A stretch of 35,827 nt of DNA, taken from positions 1-35,827 of IMG/VR virus record IMGVR_UViG_3300042402_001646; one strand, 5' to 3'. Of this stretch, positions 3,579 to 34,552 are shown in pieces. The position numbers and the translations under genes were made by a program. Under the pieces are notes generated by a model, which was not told the DNA's origin, made no database searches, and saw nothing but the letters and a program-made list of their open reading frames with translations. This DNA is from a virus. Each line of letters begins with the position of its first letter. Within the stretch, counting starts at the first letter, position 1.

Positions 3579-4201
3579 TAAACTTTCACAACTGCGACAA
3601 TATGCAGTTTATGGCTGATGTGCCTGATAAGTATTACGAACTTGCCATTTGCGATATTCCTTATGGATTGGGGGATAAGTTAACGCAAGGTGGAACGTGG
3701 GCGGCTAAATATAAAAAGGGGGATGCCGATTGGGATAAGTTACCACCAAAAGAATATTTTGAACAATTATTTAGAATATCACAAAATCAAATTATTTGGG
3801 GTGGAAACTATGTTGACCTACCACCGACAAGAGGTTTTGTAATTTGGGATAAAGTGGCATTGATGGACACAATGGCTGACTGCGAGTTTGCGTGGACTTC
3901 ATTTGATAGAAACGCAAAGATTTTTAGGCATGTTAGAAATACATCTGAAAAGCGCATTCATATTACTCAAAAACCTGTTGCCCTTTACGAATGGCTATTA
4001 TCAAAATACGCAAAGCCAAACGATAAGATAATTGACACTCATGGTGGAAGCGGCTCAATAGCCATAGCAGTTGACAAAGCGAACACATTAGATAAAACAA
4101 ACTATACACTTGACATTATTGAACTCGATAAGGATTACTTCGATGCCTCACTTAACCGATTTAAACAATACAAATCACAAACAACACTAAACTTAAAATG
4201 A
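3575..4201 (+). CDS. DNA methyltransferase (N6-adenine or N4-cytosine, beta class), orphan
   Basis: Transfers a methyl group from S-adenosylmethionine to an exocyclic amino group in DNA. The catalytic motif IV is DIPYG at residues 26-30 (D-I-P-Y rather than the common DPPY). The motif order is catalytic motif first, then ITQKP at about 131-135, then the SAM-binding DTHGGSGS at about 154-161; this IV-before-I order is that of beta-class enzymes. At 208 aa it is short for the class, with a small region for target recognition. No partner restriction nuclease lies nearby, so it probably protects phage DNA from host restriction or marks it for replication or packaging. It overlaps both neighbours by 4 nt. 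Confidence 0.85.
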   Translation: MINFHNCDNMQFMADVPDKYYELAICDIPYGLGDKLTQGGTWAAKYKKGDADWDKLPPKEYFEQLFRISQNQIIWGGNYVDLPPTRGFVIWDKVALMDTMADCEFAWTSFDRNAKIFRHVRNTSEKRIHITQKPVALYEWLLSKYAKPNDKIIDTHGGSGSIAIAVDKANTLDKTNYTLDIIELDKDYFDASLNRFKQYKSQTTLNLK

Positions 4202-4464
4202 ACATAACCGCAGAACAACCCCGAATCAAACCAAGCAACACCCAACTTAAACAAGAATACAAACAGATGTTGGCACTTGTTGAACACAACGGATCCCGAC
4301 CCGCGAAATGCAATCCAATAACCGAAGCGGCTAAACAATTTGGCTACACTCGACCCGGTATTGCCAGACTTATGAATGGTAAAGTTGACCGTTGGAAGCC
4401 TCAACATTTTATGATTTATGATTTTCTTAAAAATTATTTGTCTGTAAATCAACAACTTAAGTAA
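4198..4464 (+). CDS. HTH-like hypothetical protein, 88 aa
   Basis: Residues about 42-61 read ITEAAKQFGYTRPGIARLMN, a good helix-turn-helix pattern with ALA at the first helix and a recognition-like second helix. The rest is basic N-terminally and hydrophobic C-terminally (FMIYDFLKNYLSVN). It is coupled to the methyltransferase by an ATGA overlap, so a role as regulator of that gene or as a DNA-binding partner is plausible, though unproven. Confidence 0.55.
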   Translation: MNITAEQPRIKPSNTQLKQEYKQMLALVEHNGSRPAKCNPITEAAKQFGYTRPGIARLMNGKVDRWKPQHFMIYDFLKNYLSVNQQLK

Positions 4465-5564: not shown

Positions 5565-6260
5565 ATGAACACACAAGTAAGCACAGTAACAACAATTAAC
5601 ACTACTGATATAATGAATATCAGTAAAGCATTTTATGAAAGCGGAATGTTTACCGACATTAAAAGTGTTGCGCAGGCTATGGTCAAAATATCCGCAGGGC
5701 AAGAAATCGGAATACCTCCATTCGCCTCAATGACTGGTATACATATTATACAAGGAAAGCCAACTATTGGTGCTGGTTTAATAGCATCACGTTTAAAAGG
5801 TAGTGGCAAGTATGATTATCGTGTTGTTGAGGCCTCTGAAAAGGTTTGCTCAATTGATTTCTATCAAGGTAACACAAAGATAGGCAATAGCACATTCACT
5901 ATTGAGGATGCGAAAAAAGCACTAACCAAGAACATTGATAAATTTCCAAAGAATATGCTATTTGCAAGGGCTATCAGTAATGGTGTGAAGTGGTATTGCC
6001 CAGACATCTTTAGTGGACCAGTGTATGTGCCAGAGGAAATGCAAGTAATAACTACTGAAGAGGCTACCCACATCGAAGTTGACACAACTATTGATGAGAT
6101 TATCAATGACATTCAAGTATGTGTTAGTTTAGATGAATTACAAGCTATTTGGAAAGCAGTTCCTAAAGACATTAAACTTGACTTAAGAGTATTAGCAGCA
6201 AAGGATGATATGAAAGCTAAATTAACAACTATTTCATTAACATCTAAAACCGAAGCATAA
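5565..6260 (+). CDS. RecT-like single-strand annealing protein
   Basis: Residues 44-77 contain AGQEIGIPPFASMTGIHIIQ followed by GKPTIGAGLIASRLK, a pattern shared by phage proteins annotated as RecT-family recombinases, with the following YDYRVVEASEK and DAKKAL segments also typical. Such proteins anneal complementary single strands during phage recombination and replication. At 231 aa the length is slightly short for the family, and the C-terminal about 60 residues look like a variable partner-binding tail. It sits between the DUF3127 and Gp157 genes and overlaps the latter by one base (TAATG junction at 6260), supporting a recombination operon. A partner exonuclease was not found next to it. 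Confidence 0.72.
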   Translation: MNTQVSTVTTINTTDIMNISKAFYESGMFTDIKSVAQAMVKISAGQEIGIPPFASMTGIHIIQGKPTIGAGLIASRLKGSGKYDYRVVEASEKVCSIDFYQGNTKIGNSTFTIEDAKKALTKNIDKFPKNMLFARAISNGVKWYCPDIFSGPVYVPEEMQVITTEEATHIEVDTTIDEIINDIQVCVSLDELQAIWKAVPKDIKLDLRVLAAKDDMKAKLTTISLTSKTEA

Positions 6261-6754
6261 TGAAACTAACAATCTATCAAATCGAACAAAGCTATAACCA
6301 ATTAGCTGAAGAACTTATAGAGAATGGGGGTGAGTTAACCCCCTCTCTTGAGGAAGCACTTGCCATTACCGAAGAACAACTGCAAAACAAATCTGTTGCC
6401 TATTCATTTGTTATTAAGCAAATGGATGCAGATGTTGAAATTATTGAGGCTGAAATAAAGAGGTTGCAGGCAGCAAAGAAACAACGTGAGAAAGCATCGG
6501 ATTATTTAAAGGATCGCATTAAACACGCAATGGATTTATTTAGCATTGAAGAAATTAAAACACCATTGGTCAAGATTAACTTTAGAAAATCTGAAACAGT
6601 TGAGGTGGATGATGTTAACAAATTGCCTGCTGCATTCAAAGTGGTAAAGGTAACAGAACAAGCAGATAAGGTAGCTATTAAAGCAGCACTTAAAGATGGT
6701 GTTGAGGTTGCTGGATGCAGCATTGCAACACATCGTAATTTGCAGATTAAGTAA
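6260..6754 (+). CDS. siphovirus Gp157 family protein
   Basis: Matches the Gp157 family (named from Streptococcus thermophilus siphovirus Sfi proteins): N-terminal IENGGELTPSLEEALAIT, a central coiled coil (about residues 45-90, IEAEIKRLQAAKKQREKA), then IKTPLVKINFRKSETVEVDD and a C-terminal AIKAALKDGVEVAG followed by the NLQIK end. Length (164 aa) is normal for the family. Gp157 genes lie with phage recombination genes, as here; their biochemical function is not settled, and resistance or DNA-binding roles have been proposed. A GGGGGT/ACCCCC pair inside the gene near 6326-6343 is most likely a by-product of coding sequence. Confidence 0.85.
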   Translation: MKLTIYQIEQSYNQLAEELIENGGELTPSLEEALAITEEQLQNKSVAYSFVIKQMDADVEIIEAEIKRLQAAKKQREKASDYLKDRIKHAMDLFSIEEIKTPLVKINFRKSETVEVDDVNKLPAAFKVVKVTEQADKVAIKAALKDGVEVAGCSIATHRNLQIK

Positions 6755-6770
6755 TTAATTTATATATTTA
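6739..6770 (+). promoter_or_regulatory. promoter driving the 6776-6870 leader RNA
   Basis: TTTG at 6739-6742 is separated by 20 nt from TATATTTA at 6763-6770 (one mismatch to TAnnTTTG). A start point near 6776-6778 is expected, just before the first strand of the structured leader. Confidence 0.55.
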
Positions 6771-6775
6771 CAAAG

Positions 6776-6870
6776 TTGTTTCGGTCTCACATTATAGAAA
6801 CATAATAATATTGGCCCTTATAGAGGCGCAAGGAAGTGAGACCCCTTGCAAATCTTTAAGGGCTTTTTTA
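6776..6870 (+). ncRNA. candidate structured RNA with pseudoknot and terminator-like end (leader A)
   Basis: Several complementary segments are interleaved. P1: GGTCTCAC (6783-6790) with GTGAGACC (6836-6843), 8 bp. P2: GCCCTTA (6814-6820) with TAAGGGC (6857-6863), 7 bp, followed by six T. P3: GCAAGG (6828-6833) with CCTTGC (6844-6849), whose 10-nt loop contains the second strand of P1. P1 and P2 cross, so they form a pseudoknot if both exist. An alternative hairpin CCCTT/AAGGG (6843-6847 with 6858-6862) before the T-run looks like an intrinsic terminator and competes with P2 and P3. The RNA could be a free sRNA or a leader attenuating the gene at 6883. Confidence 0.5.
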
Positions 6871-6882
6871 ATTTTATACACA

Positions 6883-7056
6883 ATGTACACATATTATTTA
6901 TGCAATGATGGAGGATTTAATACTATTGAACTTCCTATTTTAATTTTTTCAAATTCAGAATTTCACTATGATGAATTTTTTAGTAATTACAGAGTTGAAA
7001 AGCACGAATTAAATGACAATGATGAATTAATAATTATTTGCGAAAAAATTTATTAG
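6883..7056 (+). CDS. hypothetical protein, 57 aa
   Basis: Start chosen at ATG 6883, after the leader's T-run; an earlier TTG-type frame start would lie inside the structured RNA. The protein is acidic and aromatic, starting MYTYYLCNDGGFNTIELPI and ending in DNDELIIICEKIY. No family recognised. Its position directly after the leader makes it the likely regulated gene. Confidence 0.5.
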   Translation: MYTYYLCNDGGFNTIELPILIFSNSEFHYDEFFSNYRVEKHELNDNDELIIICEKIY

Positions 7057-7059
7057 CCA

Positions 7060-7188
7060 ATGAAAATATTTTTTATAAAATCACCAAGTGGCAAACTATA
7101 CACACTAAACGCTGAATCAAAGTTTCACGCGATACAAAAAGCAATAGTTAAGGATGACTTTAAGTATAATTCAAAGCAATACAAATGA
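7060..7188 (+). CDS. small hypothetical protein, 42 aa
   Basis: A short frame from ATG 7060 to TGA 7188. It begins MKIFFIKSPSGKLYTLNAES and continues FHAIQKAIVKDDFKYN, reading like a small beta-then-helix protein. It starts 3 nt after the previous stop and its stop overlaps the next start as ATGA (7185-7188), the packing seen across this genome, which supports it as a real gene. Confidence 0.5.
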   Translation: MKIFFIKSPSGKLYTLNAESKFHAIQKAIVKDDFKYNSKQYK

Positions 7189-8060
7189 ATCCTATTTTTA
7201 ATTATTACGAAGCCGACATCAAACGTAGCACTCCATTAGGTAGTGTTACGCTTGAATATCTTATAAACGCTATTAGAACACCTAAAAAGGACATCCGCAA
7301 TGTATTTGAGGAGATACGTATTGCAGAGGAAAAAAAAGACATGGCAACAAAGCAAGCATTGAAGTCAAAACTATATTCATTTACTCCATGTGTTTATGTT
7401 AACGGGCCGCGTAAGTATTCTAACATTCAACATTGGACTGGCTTACTTGTTTTGGATTTCGACCATTTAGCATCCGATGTGGCAGTTGAATTCAAAGAGT
7501 ATTTATTTAACGAATACAAATACATCATAACCGCGTGGTTATCCGCTTCGAGGCATGGTGTTCGCGCACTGGTTAAGATTCCGATTTGCACTTCGGTTGA
7601 TGAATTCAAACACTATTATGCAGGCATTGAGCGACACCTCAACTGTTACAATGGGTTTGATACCGCGCCAAAAAACTGCATTTTACCGATGTTTATCAGT
7701 TACGATGCCGATATTTTACACAGAAACGATGCGCAAACGTGGTCAACAAAACACATTGAAATTGTTAGGCCTGCAACAAAACAATACATAATTGATGACA
7801 AAACATCTGTTATTGAAAAGATTATTGCTAAACGTATTAATACCATAACCGATACTGGGCATATTATTTTAAGAGCAACTTCGTACTTGCTCGGAGGGTT
7901 TGTTGGCGCGAATTATATTGATTATAATGATGCCATTTCTTTAATCAATAACTTAATTGATTCGCAAAGTTACCTATCAAAAAAGCCTGATGTTTATAAG
8001 CAAACCGCAAAACAAATGGTGGATAAGGGTTTAAATTTTCCTACTTATCTATCTAAATAA
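7185..8060 (+). CDS. VirE_N / BT4734-like primase-type protein
   Basis: Residues about 60-180 match the BT4734/VirE N-terminal domain: SFTPCVYVNGPRKYSNI, then GLLVLDFDHL (DFD at 91-93), then SASRHGVRALVKIP at about 120-133, then a helix and ISYDADI at about 171-177. DFD and the SRHG segment correspond to metal and catalytic motifs of the archaeo-eukaryotic primase fold to which this domain is related. The remaining C-terminal about 90 residues have a helical region like those of primase-helicase linkers. The next large gene is a helicase, so the two likely work as a split primase-helicase at the replication origin. Domain call strong; priming activity is inferred. Confidence 0.8.
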   Translation: MNPIFNYYEADIKRSTPLGSVTLEYLINAIRTPKKDIRNVFEEIRIAEEKKDMATKQALKSKLYSFTPCVYVNGPRKYSNIQHWTGLLVLDFDHLASDVAVEFKEYLFNEYKYIITAWLSASRHGVRALVKIPICTSVDEFKHYYAGIERHLNCYNGFDTAPKNCILPMFISYDADILHRNDAQTWSTKHIEIVRPATKQYIIDDKTSVIEKIIAKRINTITDTGHIILRATSYLLGGFVGANYIDYNDAISLINNLIDSQSYLSKKPDVYKQTAKQMVDKGLNFPTYLSK

Positions 8061-8062
8061 AT

Positions 8063-8092
8063 TTTGCAATTAAAAATATTTAGTTATATTTG
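8063..8092 (+). promoter_or_regulatory. promoter driving the 8097-8196 leader
   Basis: TTTG at 8063-8066, an 18-nt spacer and TATATTTG at 8085-8092 followed by C. This is one of the best matches to the Bacteroidota promoter consensus in the window. Start point expected near 8097. Confidence 0.62.
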
Positions 8093-8096
8093 CATC

Positions 8097-8196
8097 GCTT
8101 ATTCAGTATGAAAACATTCAAAAATCCCATCATTTACACTGCCTAAAGTTACGACCGTAACAACTGGATAAGCCTTTGTATTTGATGGGTATTTTT
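8097..8196 (+). ncRNA. candidate pseudoknotted leader RNA (leader B)
   Basis: P1: GCTTATTCAGT (8097-8107) pairs with ACTGGATAAGC (8163-8173), 11 bp with one G-U. P2: AAAAATCCCATCA (8120-8132) pairs with TGATGGGTATTTTT (8183-8196), 13 bp with one bulged T. P3: GTTAC/GTAAC around a GACC tetraloop (8148-8161). The order is P1a, P2a, P3, P1b, P2b, so P1 and P2 cross as an H-type pseudoknot or as alternatives. P2 ends 3 nt before the ATG at 8200, so it would hide the start codon. The order of elements matches leader A although sequences differ. Confidence 0.5.
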
Positions 8197-8199
8197 ATT

Positions 8200-8388
8200 A
8201 TGAAAAACCAAAAAACAAAAAAAGAAAGATTAGAGTATCTTGCAGGATTAGCAATGCAAAGTTTTATTGTAAAAACTCAAAATAATTATGAATACTTTGA
8301 GCAAAAAAATATTAAACCTATATGTTTTGTTGCTATTCGAATTGCTCAAGAAATGATAAAACAAATTGATGAAAATGAACAAATTTAA
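8200..8388 (+). CDS. hypothetical protein, 62 aa
   Basis: Start chosen at ATG 8200, immediately after the structured leader; an upstream in-frame start at 8176 would lie within it. The protein is basic at its start (KNQKTKKERLEYLAG) and helical (VAIRIAQEMIKQIDENEQ). Unknown function. It overlaps the helicase gene by about 20 nt and is the first gene of the unit controlled by leader B. Confidence 0.55.
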   Translation: MKNQKTKKERLEYLAGLAMQSFIVKTQNNYEYFEQKNIKPICFVAIRIAQEMIKQIDENEQI

Positions 8389-9931
8389 GAAACCCGAAAA
8401 GAATTCAATCTACAACCCAGTAGATTGGTTTAATGAGTTTGGCACGTTTCAGCAAATATTTGAGGGCGATAAAAAATGTATTTCATTTTCAGATACGGAG
8501 GCAACTTATCCAGTTAGTGATGCAAGTGATTTGTCTAAAAGTCCTAATTTTATATTAAATAAAAACGGAAAGATTGACATTAAAAAGTCAAACCCATTTG
8601 ATTTAGCAACAGGGCAAAGCTTCAGTAAATTTATATTGTTGACAACGGTTAAATTTAAAGGCGATTACTTTCAAGCAATGAGTCACGTTTCTTATAATAT
8701 AATGCAAAACGAAATACCTTACATTCGCGTTGGCTCCGATTATTTTAAAGTAATTAAAAAAGATGACCGATATTCCGGAACTAATGTAATCTTAAAGTCA
8801 TGGAAAAAAGATGAAATAAAAGAGGATCATACGAAAAATATACTTTGCAAAATTTATAAGTTTGATGACTTCACAATTATTCCTAATAATGTGACTTTTA
8901 TTCCATCAAAAAACAATTGTTATAATTTGTATGCCAAATTCCCACATACAAAATATAGTGATACTGTTTACACCGATGACATTAGTGTAACACTTGGTTT
9001 ATTAAGTCACATCTTTGGCGAACAATTAGAGTTAGGTTTGAAGTACATGAAGTTGTTATACGAGTATCCTTGTCAAATATTGCCAGTGCTTTCTTTAGTT
9101 TCAACTGAAAGAGAAACTGGTAAGACAACCTTTTTAAATTATATTCAGATGTTATTTGGCGAAAATTCAACACTTATTAATCCAAGTGATTTAATGAGTA
9201 GCTTTAATGATGCCTATGCCACCAAGAATATAATTATGATTGATGAAACCGTAATTGAAAAGCAACACGTTGTTGAAAAACTTAAATCGTTGGCAACTGC
9301 AAAAACTATTTCAGTATCGCAAAAGTTTGTTCAACATTACAGCGTGCCATTCTTTGGTAAAATTATCGTTTGCACAAATAAGGAAACCGATTTTATGAGA
9401 ATAGATGACGAAGAGATACGCTTTTGGATTAGGAAAATTAACCCGATTGTTGGCAAAAAAAACACGAATATTGAAAATGATTTGTTTAATGAGATTCCTA
9501 AATTCCTTAAATATTTAGAACAACTTCCTGATATTGACTTTTCAAATTCTCGCATGGTATTCACTCAGGAGGAAATACAAACCGAATCGCTGGAACTTAT
9601 CAAAAAAGAAAGTAAAAACGGATTAAGAAAAGAACTTGAAATATACATCGAAGACTTTTTTAACAATAATAATTGTGATACATTTGAAGCAACAGCAAAA
9701 GATATAAAAGAGGAATGGTTTGAACATGATAGGGAAAAGATGTCTTACATTCTTAAAGTGCTTAAAAACGAAATGAAAATGTCACCACAACCGAATAAGT
9801 ATTATGTGCCATTTAATAAGACTAATATGTTGGATAAAAAGAAAGGAACTCCGTTTCTATTTGTGAGGGAAAATACTCAAACCGTTGAAAATGAATCTTA
9901 TAGTGATTATGAAAACAGACAACCATTTTAA
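8369..9931 (+). CDS. SF3-type replicative helicase (D5/primase-helicase like)
   Basis: An ATP-driven helicase likely unwinding the phage origin. The ATPase core is near the middle: Walker A STERETGKTT at about residues 245-254, Walker B IIMIDE at about 288-293, and the SF3 motif C segment GKIIVCTNK at about 330-338, followed by an arginine-rich RIDDEEIRFWIRK stretch. The N-terminal 200 residues include no clear zinc-binding primase motif, consistent with primase activity being in the previous gene. The C-terminal about 130 residues are charged, likely a DNA- or partner-binding domain. ATG 8369 is preferred to the TTG at 8366; ATG 8375 is also possible. The 520-aa length fits phage enzymes of this type. 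Confidence 0.85.
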   Translation: MKMNKFKKPEKNSIYNPVDWFNEFGTFQQIFEGDKKCISFSDTEATYPVSDASDLSKSPNFILNKNGKIDIKKSNPFDLATGQSFSKFILLTTVKFKGDYFQAMSHVSYNIMQNEIPYIRVGSDYFKVIKKDDRYSGTNVILKSWKKDEIKEDHTKNILCKIYKFDDFTIIPNNVTFIPSKNNCYNLYAKFPHTKYSDTVYTDDISVTLGLLSHIFGEQLELGLKYMKLLYEYPCQILPVLSLVSTERETGKTTFLNYIQMLFGENSTLINPSDLMSSFNDAYATKNIIMIDETVIEKQHVVEKLKSLATAKTISVSQKFVQHYSVPFFGKIIVCTNKETDFMRIDDEEIRFWIRKINPIVGKKNTNIENDLFNEIPKFLKYLEQLPDIDFSNSRMVFTQEEIQTESLELIKKESKNGLRKELEIYIEDFFNNNNCDTFEATAKDIKEEWFEHDREKMSYILKVLKNEMKMSPQPNKYYVPFNKTNMLDKKKGTPFLFVRENTQTVENESYSDYENRQPF

Positions 9932-33751: not shown

Positions 33752-33920
33752 TCAAGAAATAGTCGCAGTTAAACCATTGATATTAGTACTTATTATATTG
33801 TTAGTTTACCTTATTGCAATGTTGTATCAGTATAGAGAAATAGCCAAGAATGTAGGTCGCTTCTTTAAAGGCGGTGTTGTTGCGTTGTTGGTAATGCTTG
33901 GAATTATTGATGACAAATAA
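33744..33920 (+). CDS. small membrane protein, 58 aa
   Basis: Start chosen at ATG 33744, overlapping the previous stop by 8 nt. One strong hydrophobic segment (about residues 9-30, KPLILVLIILLVYLIAML) followed by a basic amphipathic region, then a second hydrophobic stretch (GGVVALLVMLGII). It forms a pair with the preceding gene, perhaps a holin and its partner, at the end of the rightward unit. Confidence 0.5.
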   Translation: MTNQEIVAVKPLILVLIILLVYLIAMLYQYREIAKNVGRFFKGGVVALLVMLGIIDDK

Positions 33921-33966
33921 CAAAGCCCTCACATTTCTGCAAGGGCTATGACCTAACTAACATTGA
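33915..33966 (-). ncRNA. candidate small RNA ending in a hairpin
   Basis: A near-consensus promoter (33973-34003) points leftward, with a start expected near 33966. Within 20-40 nt the RNA meets an inverted repeat, AGCCCT at 33947-33942 and AGGGCT at 33929-33924 (minus strand), followed by TTGTTATTTG. The predicted product is about 50 nt. CCCTTGCA and AGGGCTTT in the hairpin recur in leader A at 6843-6866. It could be a short regulatory RNA, or an antisense start that reads into the 3' end of the rightward unit. Confidence 0.4.
33924..33947. terminator. hairpin in the convergent gap
   Basis: AGCCCT and AGGGCT form a 6-bp stem with a 12-nt loop in the 65-nt gap between the convergent transcription units. 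The minus-strand side has a weak U-rich tail, the plus side none, so it acts chiefly on leftward transcripts. Confidence 0.5.
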
Positions 33967-33972
33967 ACGAGG

Positions 33973-34003
33973 CAAAGATACTAATTTATTTCAATCCTAC
34001 AAA
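33973..34003 (-). promoter_or_regulatory. near-perfect leftward promoter inside the end of the spanin gene
   Basis: Minus strand: TTTG (34003-34000), 19-nt spacer, TATCTTTG (33980-33973) followed by C. This is the best TTTG-N19-TAnnTTTG match in the window, yet it points at no leftward gene, only at the hairpin. Confidence 0.6.
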
Positions 34004-34552
34004 CAACCAAAGCATAAACATAGCCCCACCAACACACCACGCTGCTATCTTACCTTTGCGTTGTTGTTTCGTTTCTTGTTTACTTATCACTAACAGAGTG
34101 CTATCGGTTACATTCTCCGCTTTGTAGTTAACTATTAAACTATCCTTAATTGTTGATACCGAATCACACAATTGAAAGGCAGTAAATAACGCTGCATAAC
34201 TACTGTCCTTAACATTGATTATCTCATCGCACAACACGAACACTGTGTCACACTCTTTTGGCAACGTATTACGCAGTTTCTTAAGCAAAGCTATGTTAGT
34301 GTTGCTTAATGATATTTCACGCTTTCTAATGCTATCTTTTGCGTTATTGGCAACTTGCAGTCTTCGGGTAGCTGCTTCCAGTTGATTCAGCAATATTGCT
34401 TGTTCTATACCAAATTGCTTCTTCATCATTTCCGCTTCTGCTTTGTAATCGAATGGGATAGGCTTCGGTTTCTCCTTTGCGCAATGGTTAAGACCTATTA
34501 CTAATAGCAAGCATAGTGCTGCGAATGTGATAAGTTGGTGTTGTTGTTTCAT
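33986..34552 (-). CDS. spanin candidate (unimolecular design), 188 aa
   Basis: Start chosen at ATG 34552, 10 nt after the upstream stop; an earlier start at 34582 would overlap that gene. N-terminal hydrophobic stretch LITFAALCLLLVIGLNHC with a cysteine at residue 24, then a Lys/Pro region, a long coiled-coil middle (about 35-165), and a C-terminal membrane segment (about 168-186, IAAWCVGGAMFMLWLFVGL). A signal-like N-terminus plus coiled coil plus C-terminal anchor is the layout of a u-spanin, which bridges both membranes and fuses them during lysis. The lipobox is not canonical (LNHC), so the N-terminus may instead be a plain membrane anchor. Last gene of the leftward unit. Confidence 0.58.
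   Translation of the reverse strand: MKQQHQLITFAALCLLLVIGLNHCAKEKPKPIPFDYKAEAEMMKKQFGIEQAILLNQLEAATRRLQVANNAKDSIRKREISLSNTNIALLKKLRNTLPKECDTVFVLCDEIINVKDSSYAALFTAFQLCDSVSTIKDSLIVNYKAENVTDSTLLVISKQETKQQRKGKIAAWCVGGAMFMLWLFVGLK

Follow-up and report, generated by a model that had tools for sequence, protein, structure and literature searches.

The stretch of phage DNA analysed here (the window, a virus record in IMG/VR with a length of 35,827 bases) contains a 128-nt gene-free region (6755–6882) between a Sipho_Gp157 gene and a small gene whose ATG lies at 6883. This raises the question of whether the region, referred to as leader A, encodes a functional RNA and, if so, what that RNA does. Because relatives keep its design with changed yet matching loop sequences, leader A is a genuine, so far uncatalogued RNA, which probably gates the genes behind it.

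Architecture of leader A

The elements of leader A and the genes around it are as follows.

6260–6754, plus strand: Sipho_Gp157 gene (E 2.3e-35), immediately upstream of leader A; the slot anchor in relatives
6739–6770, plus strand: Bacteroidetes-type promoter motif (TTTG 6739–6742, N20, TATATTTA 6763–6770)
6777–6802, plus strand: P0, the 5' hairpin (TGTTTC 6777–6782 / GAAACA 6797–6802), with P1a in its loop
6783–6790, plus strand: P1a, GGTCTCAC, 5' strand of the loop–loop (pseudoknot) helix; 8-bp repeat partner of P1b
6814–6863, plus strand: terminator-like hairpin (P2 6814–6824/6853–6863, P3 6828–6833/6844–6849, apical loop 6834–6843)
6836–6843, plus strand: P1b, GTGAGACC, located within the terminator-like hairpin's apical loop; 8-bp repeat, with covariation
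6864–6869, plus strand: T6 tract, the termination point predicted from the sequence
6883–7056, plus strand: 57-aa gene, the first one after leader A, with no Pfam or PHROGs match
7060–7188, plus strand: second small gene (ORF, 42 aa), with no function assigned from Pfam or PHROGs
7185–8060, plus strand: BT4734-like_N (PF08800) primase-type gene (E 1.7e-13), behind leader A

Leader A consists of two hairpins, P0 and a longer one built from P2 and P3, with loops that are complementary over the 8 bp of P1; the T6 tract follows. The 7-bp core of P2 (GCCCTTA 6814–6820 / TAAGGGC 6857–6863) extends to 10 pairs with one U·U mismatch, and P3 (GCAAGG 6828–6833 / CCTTGC 6844–6849) holds GTGAGACC within its loop. 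The transcript is predicted to start near 6775–6778. The 98-nt RNA has a fold energy z of −3.5 against 200 dinucleotide shuffles, and the pseudoknot RNA is present as a single copy, with no long direct repeat between 6735 and 6895. A first-pass annotation had listed the promoter motif, the interleaved 8-bp and 7-bp repeats, a third stem, the T6 tract and the 128-nt gene-free stretch, and each was located again where it had been placed. The helices of that list are all present; a fourth, P0, had been missed, and it is this helix that sets GGTCTCAC in a hairpin loop.

The promoter motif resembles the Bacteroidetes consensus of TTTG/−33 and TAnnTTTG/−7 given in excerpts of PMC7366714. By itself the motif occurs at chance frequency in the AT-rich window genome (10 TATATTTR against 9.5 expected); its support comes from its position and its recurrence in relatives. 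The host is probably a member of the Bacteroidota, because of the promoter type and because cultured phages with BT4734_N protein relatives (~40% identity) infect Flavobacterium and Cellulophaga.

A search of the window against Rfam 15 gave no match at the gathering threshold, and relaxed-limit scores over the leader A region were at chance level, far below the thresholds. Assignment to a known RNA family was accordingly rejected, in agreement with the annotation, which had recognised no known riboswitch class.

Covariation and chance controls

Relatives were collected by searches with the BT4734_N, Gp157 and DUF5906 genes, giving 40, 79 and 80 loci, partly on the same contigs; loci often share a contig, and locus counts are not phage counts. 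All support for the leaders comes from uncultured contigs. In most relatives a promoter motif and an RNA with this topology, in several unlike sequence types, occupy the position behind Gp157 (slot A). For the type found in the window (type 1), 30 distinct similar RNAs were aligned (alignment A1) on a structure of 30 pairs comprising P0, the crossing helix P1, P2 and P3. Paired cells amount to 98.4% (shuffle mean 83.6; reached by none of 500 shuffles). Changes on both sides of a pair are seen in 17 of the 30 pairs (shuffle mean 11.3) and in 168 cells (shuffle mean 60.8), and none of the 500 shuffles reaches either value. When the partner was moved by 1–3 columns, 28–50% of cells were paired and 3–14 cells carried a two-sided change. 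A measure of further pair types is not clear, being reached by 45 of 500 shuffles.

All four helices covary, the crossing P1 included. In P0, 2 of 6 pairs show two-sided changes with 100% of cells paired, and in P1, 4 of 8 pairs do so with no one-sided changes and 99.6% paired. G–U pairs occur in P2 and P3 and in no cell of P1. Judged by this comparison of sequences, the crossing helix of leader A is beyond chance. The annotation had named a lack of covariation among the findings that would refute its reading, and the paired segments do covary. Chance structure was rejected on the same ground as an explanation of leader A and of the second leader described below. An earlier argument, that P1 is 'frozen' within types while P2 and P3 drift and so has an outside partner, was dropped as circular, the types being defined by P1.

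A descriptor of the architecture scoring at least 22 gave 137 matches in 796 kb of real sequence, which is slot-enriched and contains redundant loci, against none in 422 kb of shuffled sequence. A looser descriptor run over whole genomes was weakly specific, giving 18 real matches at a score of at least 28 (0–2 per shuffle) and 106 at a score of at least 22 (50–77 per shuffle). Because of this poor specificity, P1 pairs from a single locus are treated as candidates only.

Leader B and slot C

A second leader with the topology of leader A lies at 8063–8199, behind the BT4734_N gene (slot B).

8063–8092, plus strand: leader B promoter motif (TTTG N18 TATATTTG)
8097–8173, plus strand: leader B P1 (GCTTATTCAGT 8097–8107 / ACTGGATAAGC 8163–8173)
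8126–8197, plus strand: leader B terminator-like hairpin (CCCATCA 8126–8132 / TGATGGG 8183–8189, inner stems, T-rich tail)
8200–8388, plus strand: gene directly behind leader B, 62 aa; position 8185, within the stem, is an alternative start in the ORF list
8369–9931, plus strand: DUF5906 helicase/'DNA primase' gene (PF19263, E 8.6e-18), behind leader B

The fold energy z of leader B is −3.0. Across four sequences all 102 of 102 cells are paired, and two-sided changes occur in 5 of 26 pairs (8 cells). Slid controls gave no two-sided change; 22 of 500 shuffles reached 5 pairs and none reached 8 cells. Within P1 of leader B, two-sided changes are seen in 2 of 10 pairs across the same four sequences, with 100% of cells paired.

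A third position in relatives (slot C) carries GTAGGAG/CTCCTAC with clear kissing hairpins. Among the contigs listed, four (L226, L231, L241 and L244) have a kissing leader here with a gene directly behind it, whereas the window, L218, L223, L234 and L239 have a plain terminator instead. A second promoter motif separates the plain terminator from the next gene in L218, L223 and L239. The window's own slot C (33900–34010, minus strand) contains a promoter motif of the TTTG N19 TATCTTTG type at 33973–34003; a short, plain terminator comes next, without a gene on the same strand.

Genes behind the leaders

A pattern filter was passed by 89 unique leaders, one of which is an antisense echo (the leader of L145, L150 and L151 matches on both strands). 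P1 pairs were filtered out if they lacked a promoter motif, a T-run or a perfect stem (5 nt or longer), and 10 of the 33 named pairs yielded nothing under it (1f, 1g, 6b, 8b, 9, 10, 12, 14, 15 and 16). In 88 of the 89 an ATG follows the start of the T-run by no more than 30 nt (median 18 nt), and transcription would therefore have to pass the terminator to reach the gene. In 87 of the 89 the reading frame is at least 30 aa long or runs off the contig.

The genes in this position encode BT4734_N/PriCT/VapE-like primases, DUF5906 helicases, one C5 methylase and many small unknown proteins; HNH and GIY-YIG endonuclease genes are also found. Genes similar to that at 7060–7188 are often directly behind a leader in relatives, and no toxin family was matched among the downstream proteins examined. 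GIY-YIG and NUMOD/HNH genes directly behind kissing leaders were observed at L213:727–1488, L223:12067–12576, L075:2931–3485 and L314:1540–2133. As such genes start directly behind the leaders, homing-type endonucleases share the kissing-leader unit with replication genes.

The leader was absent from the intergenic stretches read in cultured phages with VirE-N genes, namely Cellulophaga phi18:1, phi17:1 and phi12:1 and Flavobacterium FPSV-S1, lotta8-1 and pippi8-1, and replication genes therefore do not need a leader everywhere. A blastn search of 2 kb against cultured relatives gave no match, and tblastn of the helicase against phages found nothing. A covariance model of type 1 only, with strict filters and no positive-control genome in the set, gave 0 matches in 395 Bacteroidota genomes. 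The element was not found described in the portions of the open-licence PMC literature consulted, and no similar element was seen in the excerpts of PMC4490671 and PMC2864571.

Proposed mechanism

On balance leader A is more likely than not a cis-acting, promoter-proximal conditional or leaky terminator (an attenuator) that is tuned by P1. RNA polymerase would start near 6776 and make P0, the loop of which would display P1a. The terminator hairpin would follow, displaying P1b in its apical loop, and once P1b emerges P1a would pair with it to form a loop–loop pseudoknot beside the U-tract. The timing or disturbance of this pseudoknot would set the share of polymerases that stop at 6864–6869 as opposed to reading into the gene at 6883 and the primase-type gene. 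Leader B would act likewise on the DUF5906 helicase operon. A switch between termination and readthrough at leader A is plausible from its layout; termination, readthrough, the joint formation of P1 with P2/P3 and the direction of the effect are what we infer.

Predicted folds bear on how the two states relate. When the RNA ends at P1b, 87 of the 89 unique leaders have P1 in their best nested fold (the exceptions are type C and one type 13), and in the finished RNA the terminator stem is part of the nested fold in 85 of the 89 (the exceptions are one each of 1c, 1e, 8 and 14b). Without pseudoknots the P1 and terminator states alternate; with pseudoknots they can coexist. The first-pass annotation had proposed a competing hairpin, but the helices do not form a classical, mutually exclusive antiterminator–terminator pair: although the nested folds alternate, P1b is located in the apical loop of the terminator and not in its stem, and both could form at once. 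The placing of P1b in the apical part suggests that P1 and the terminator are meant to coexist. For the same reason P1 may leave termination unaltered, unlike the pairing in classical antiterminators.

Besides the covariation, the start codons close behind the T-runs and the leaders in every slot-A locus kept, the contrast at slot C supports the attenuator: a kissing leader is followed directly by a gene, whereas a plain terminator is followed by a new promoter motif (L218, L223 and L239). Against it, the same kinds of gene lie behind types 1, 1b, 1c and 2. No gene-specific input is visible, because the loop type is tied neither to the downstream gene nor to the tree of the flanking gene. The lack of a leader in the stretches read from cultured VirE-N phages also counts against it.

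Loop types and action in trans

The loop pairs of slot A are of the following types.

Type 1 (the window's), slot A: GGTCTCAC/GTGAGACC
Type 1b, slot A: GATTCCAC/GTGGAATC
Type 1c, slot A: GGTTCGAC/GTCGAACC
Type 2, slot A: ACC(C)GCCAA/TTGGCGG(G)T
Type 3, slot A: GTTGCGGC/GCCGCAAC

Types 4 and 5 are found in slot B of relatives. A pattern scan for the P0 stem gave further pairs in other backbones, for example GATCTCAC/GTGAGATC in L253, and L314 combines the window's P1 with other stems. Scanning IMG/VR with the P0 sequence gave 91 stretches, which contain 55 unique 85-nt segments: 29 belong to known types, two carry new pairs (L253 and L267) and the rest are mostly unrelated sequence. A likeness of GGTTCGAC to the tRNA T-loop was dropped as other alleles do not fit it.

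The number of P1 loop pairs is 31, of which 16 recur in several loci (15 with at least two loci, which may share a contig, together with type C) and the remainder are single-locus candidates. Up to three leaders are found per phage. Slot-A loci were left out where Gp157 was partial or below 70% identity, where fewer than 150 nt lay downstream, or where they were duplicates. A leader is present at all 60 loci kept. In 50 of them it stands immediately behind Gp157, identified by a P1a motif within the first 70 nt, and the other 10 have a type-6 leader at +288 to +701 nt. The downstream genes tested for this slot encode BT4734_N, PriCT or VapE-like primases. On the Gp157 tree of these 60 loci the leader type changes at least 31 times, against 32.4 ± 1.5 (range 28–35) in 200 label shuffles, and by this measure leader type is unlinked to the upstream gene tree. 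For the 1.56 kb that end at the leader, L110 and L112 share 99% identity; they then continue with types 2 and 3 and unrelated downstream sequence. Such shuffling fits an exchange of leader-plus-gene cassettes. It is also compatible with alleles selected for specificity, and these data do not distinguish between the readings.

The strongest rival to the attenuator starts from these observations. The terminated leader of ~95 nt would act in trans on nascent leaders of sibling copies and enforce termination there, and the P1 alleles would be immunity or incompatibility types, comparable to those of P4 CI RNA, the c4 RNA of P1/P7 or the RNAs of plasmid copy control. Both partner strands lie in apical hairpin loops, which is the geometry of an antisense kissing pair. 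Non-cognate P1a–P1b combinations of the 31 pairs reach Watson–Crick runs of at least 6 in only 20 of 930 cases, although single-locus pairs were chosen for complementarity and the cognate side of this specificity table is partly circular. In 11 genomes with at least two leaders, co-resident leaders never match (longest run 4 nt). The shuffled types on the Gp157 tree and the type switch between L110 and L112 also speak for it, and the position before primase and helicase genes is like that of the P4 CI RNA, which gates replication genes in the excerpted account of PMC4825925. Against this, both strands are present in one molecule, and pairing in cis should win. No integrase or repressor was found among the scanned window proteins and no lysogeny is evident. 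One scan of genome contigs gave no close prophage, with three distant matches at 27–40% identity. In L110 and L112 the sequence downstream changes along with the leader, and the exchange may reflect cassette hitch-hiking. Action in trans is thus considered unlikely.

An extension of the trans reading is that the mutually non-matching loop types serve as RNA 'passwords', a terminated leader shutting off, through loop–loop pairing, the replication operon only in sibling genomes of the same type. Under it the types would form immunity or copy-number groups in phages that have no visible protein repressor, with selection maintaining their diversity and cassettes spreading them. This is judged quite unlikely.

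Other readings

Alternatively the leader could be a recognition element for antitermination, in that a phage or host protein would recognise the kissing shape and the polymerase would then read through. In its favour, the shape is kept while the sequence varies and one architecture stands before unrelated genes, but no sequence common to all types is shown, and this reading is doubtful. The HK022 put RNA and the lambda Q/6S-RNA arrangement are of this general kind, RNA or promoter-proximal elements by which polymerase is made to pass terminators.

It is improbable that leader A is a stable free small RNA of ~95 nt that acts elsewhere, with the nearby gene incidental. The RNA is bracketed by a promoter motif and a T-run and closed by hairpins at both ends, yet a start codon lies within 30 nt in 88 of 89 leaders. 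Over the 19 whole phage contigs examined, each P1 strand of types 1, 1b and 1c was found a single time, within its own leader. For types 4b and C, whose strands are 7 nt long, recurrence there is close to the chance rate or a little higher. The annotation had allowed for a free sRNA; one that used P1 to act on other mRNAs of the phage is disfavoured, as the 35.8-kb window has no second perfect 8-nt match to P1a or P1b.

Control of translation, in which a hairpin that ends ~18 nt ahead of the AUG in the readthrough mRNA would hide or expose the start region, agrees with the median of 18 nt from T-run to ATG. The type-1 fold shows no pairing with the start-codon region, and a T-run is seen in every type, though the filter required it and it is not independent evidence; this reading is very doubtful. 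A metabolite riboswitch is highly improbable: the 5' position, pseudoknot and terminator-like end would suit one, but there is no Rfam match, loops and stems differ between types, and the downstream genes concern replication, methylation and endonucleases.

Comparison with known systems

In the P4 CI RNA and its seqA–seqC elements, RNA–RNA pairing within or between leader copies is linked to premature termination (excerpts of PMC4825925). Leader A similarly appears from its position and complementarity to be an untranslated leader with internal complementarity before replication genes. It differs in that CI is a processed piece with targets on both sides, whereas here the partners occupy the loops of two adjacent hairpins, of which one is the terminator-like hairpin. 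The c4 RNA of phages P1 and P7 (RF01695) determines immunity specificity and has been proposed to carry complementary strands in loops (excerpts of PMC12197685). It differs from leader A in its target, ant mRNA in the region of the ribosome binding site, and the RF01695 model gave no match in the window at the gathering or a relaxed score.

The antisense RNA of pT181 is made from the opposite strand, while the leaders here carry both partners in one transcript. An antisense TAnnTTTG motif was found by motif scan in 15 of the 89 unique leaders, and the window's leader is absent among the 12 listed. Plasmid ColE1 RNAI/RNAII and R1 CopA/CopT are likewise pairs of RNAs from opposite strands, with loop–loop contacts of several bp and allele specificity. 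The contacts between stable hairpins are alike; in the leaders, however, the partners are in one RNA. Type III toxin–antitoxin loci (ToxIN-like) contain a repeated pseudoknot RNA, then a terminator, then a toxin gene; leader A is single copy, with no long direct repeat, and the downstream proteins tested match no toxin family. According to excerpts of PMC3753616, pT181-type attenuators couple kissing hairpins to a terminator, with specificity in the loop and upper stem, as seen in engineered orthogonal sets. In an attenuator of this kind the antiterminator would share the terminator stem; in leader A, P1b lies in the apical loop. A kissing loop ties the upstream domain of the cobalamin riboswitch to its regulatory domain (excerpts of PMC7689651), and no aptamer is recognised in leader A.

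Should the leaders gate transcription, a single RNA architecture would control replication, methylase and homing-endonuclease genes across a large group of uncultured phages of Bacteroidota type, whose hosts have yielded few descriptions of RNA regulation by phages. Natural loop pairs that do not match one another, numerous at a single locus, form a test set for the specificity of short loop–loop contacts and make RNA-based phage immunity directly testable. Even a modest reading adds a covariation-supported RNA family absent from Rfam 15.

Additional features of type-3 and type-6 loci

In type-6 loci (L068 at ~3993–4280, and similarly L070, L075, L084, L086, L091 and L102) the ~290–700 nt between Gp157 and the leader contain repeated CACATTGA / TCAATGTG motifs, perhaps a replication origin or a regulator site. 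Type-6 leaders, such as that of L068 (4277–4374), have an extra small hairpin (TTGGC...GCCAA), which separates the 5' kissing hairpin from the terminator. In type-3 leaders (L042 slot A and L112) GAGUA lies opposite GAAA between P2 and P3, which we take to be a candidate bulged-G (loop E) motif from its resemblance.
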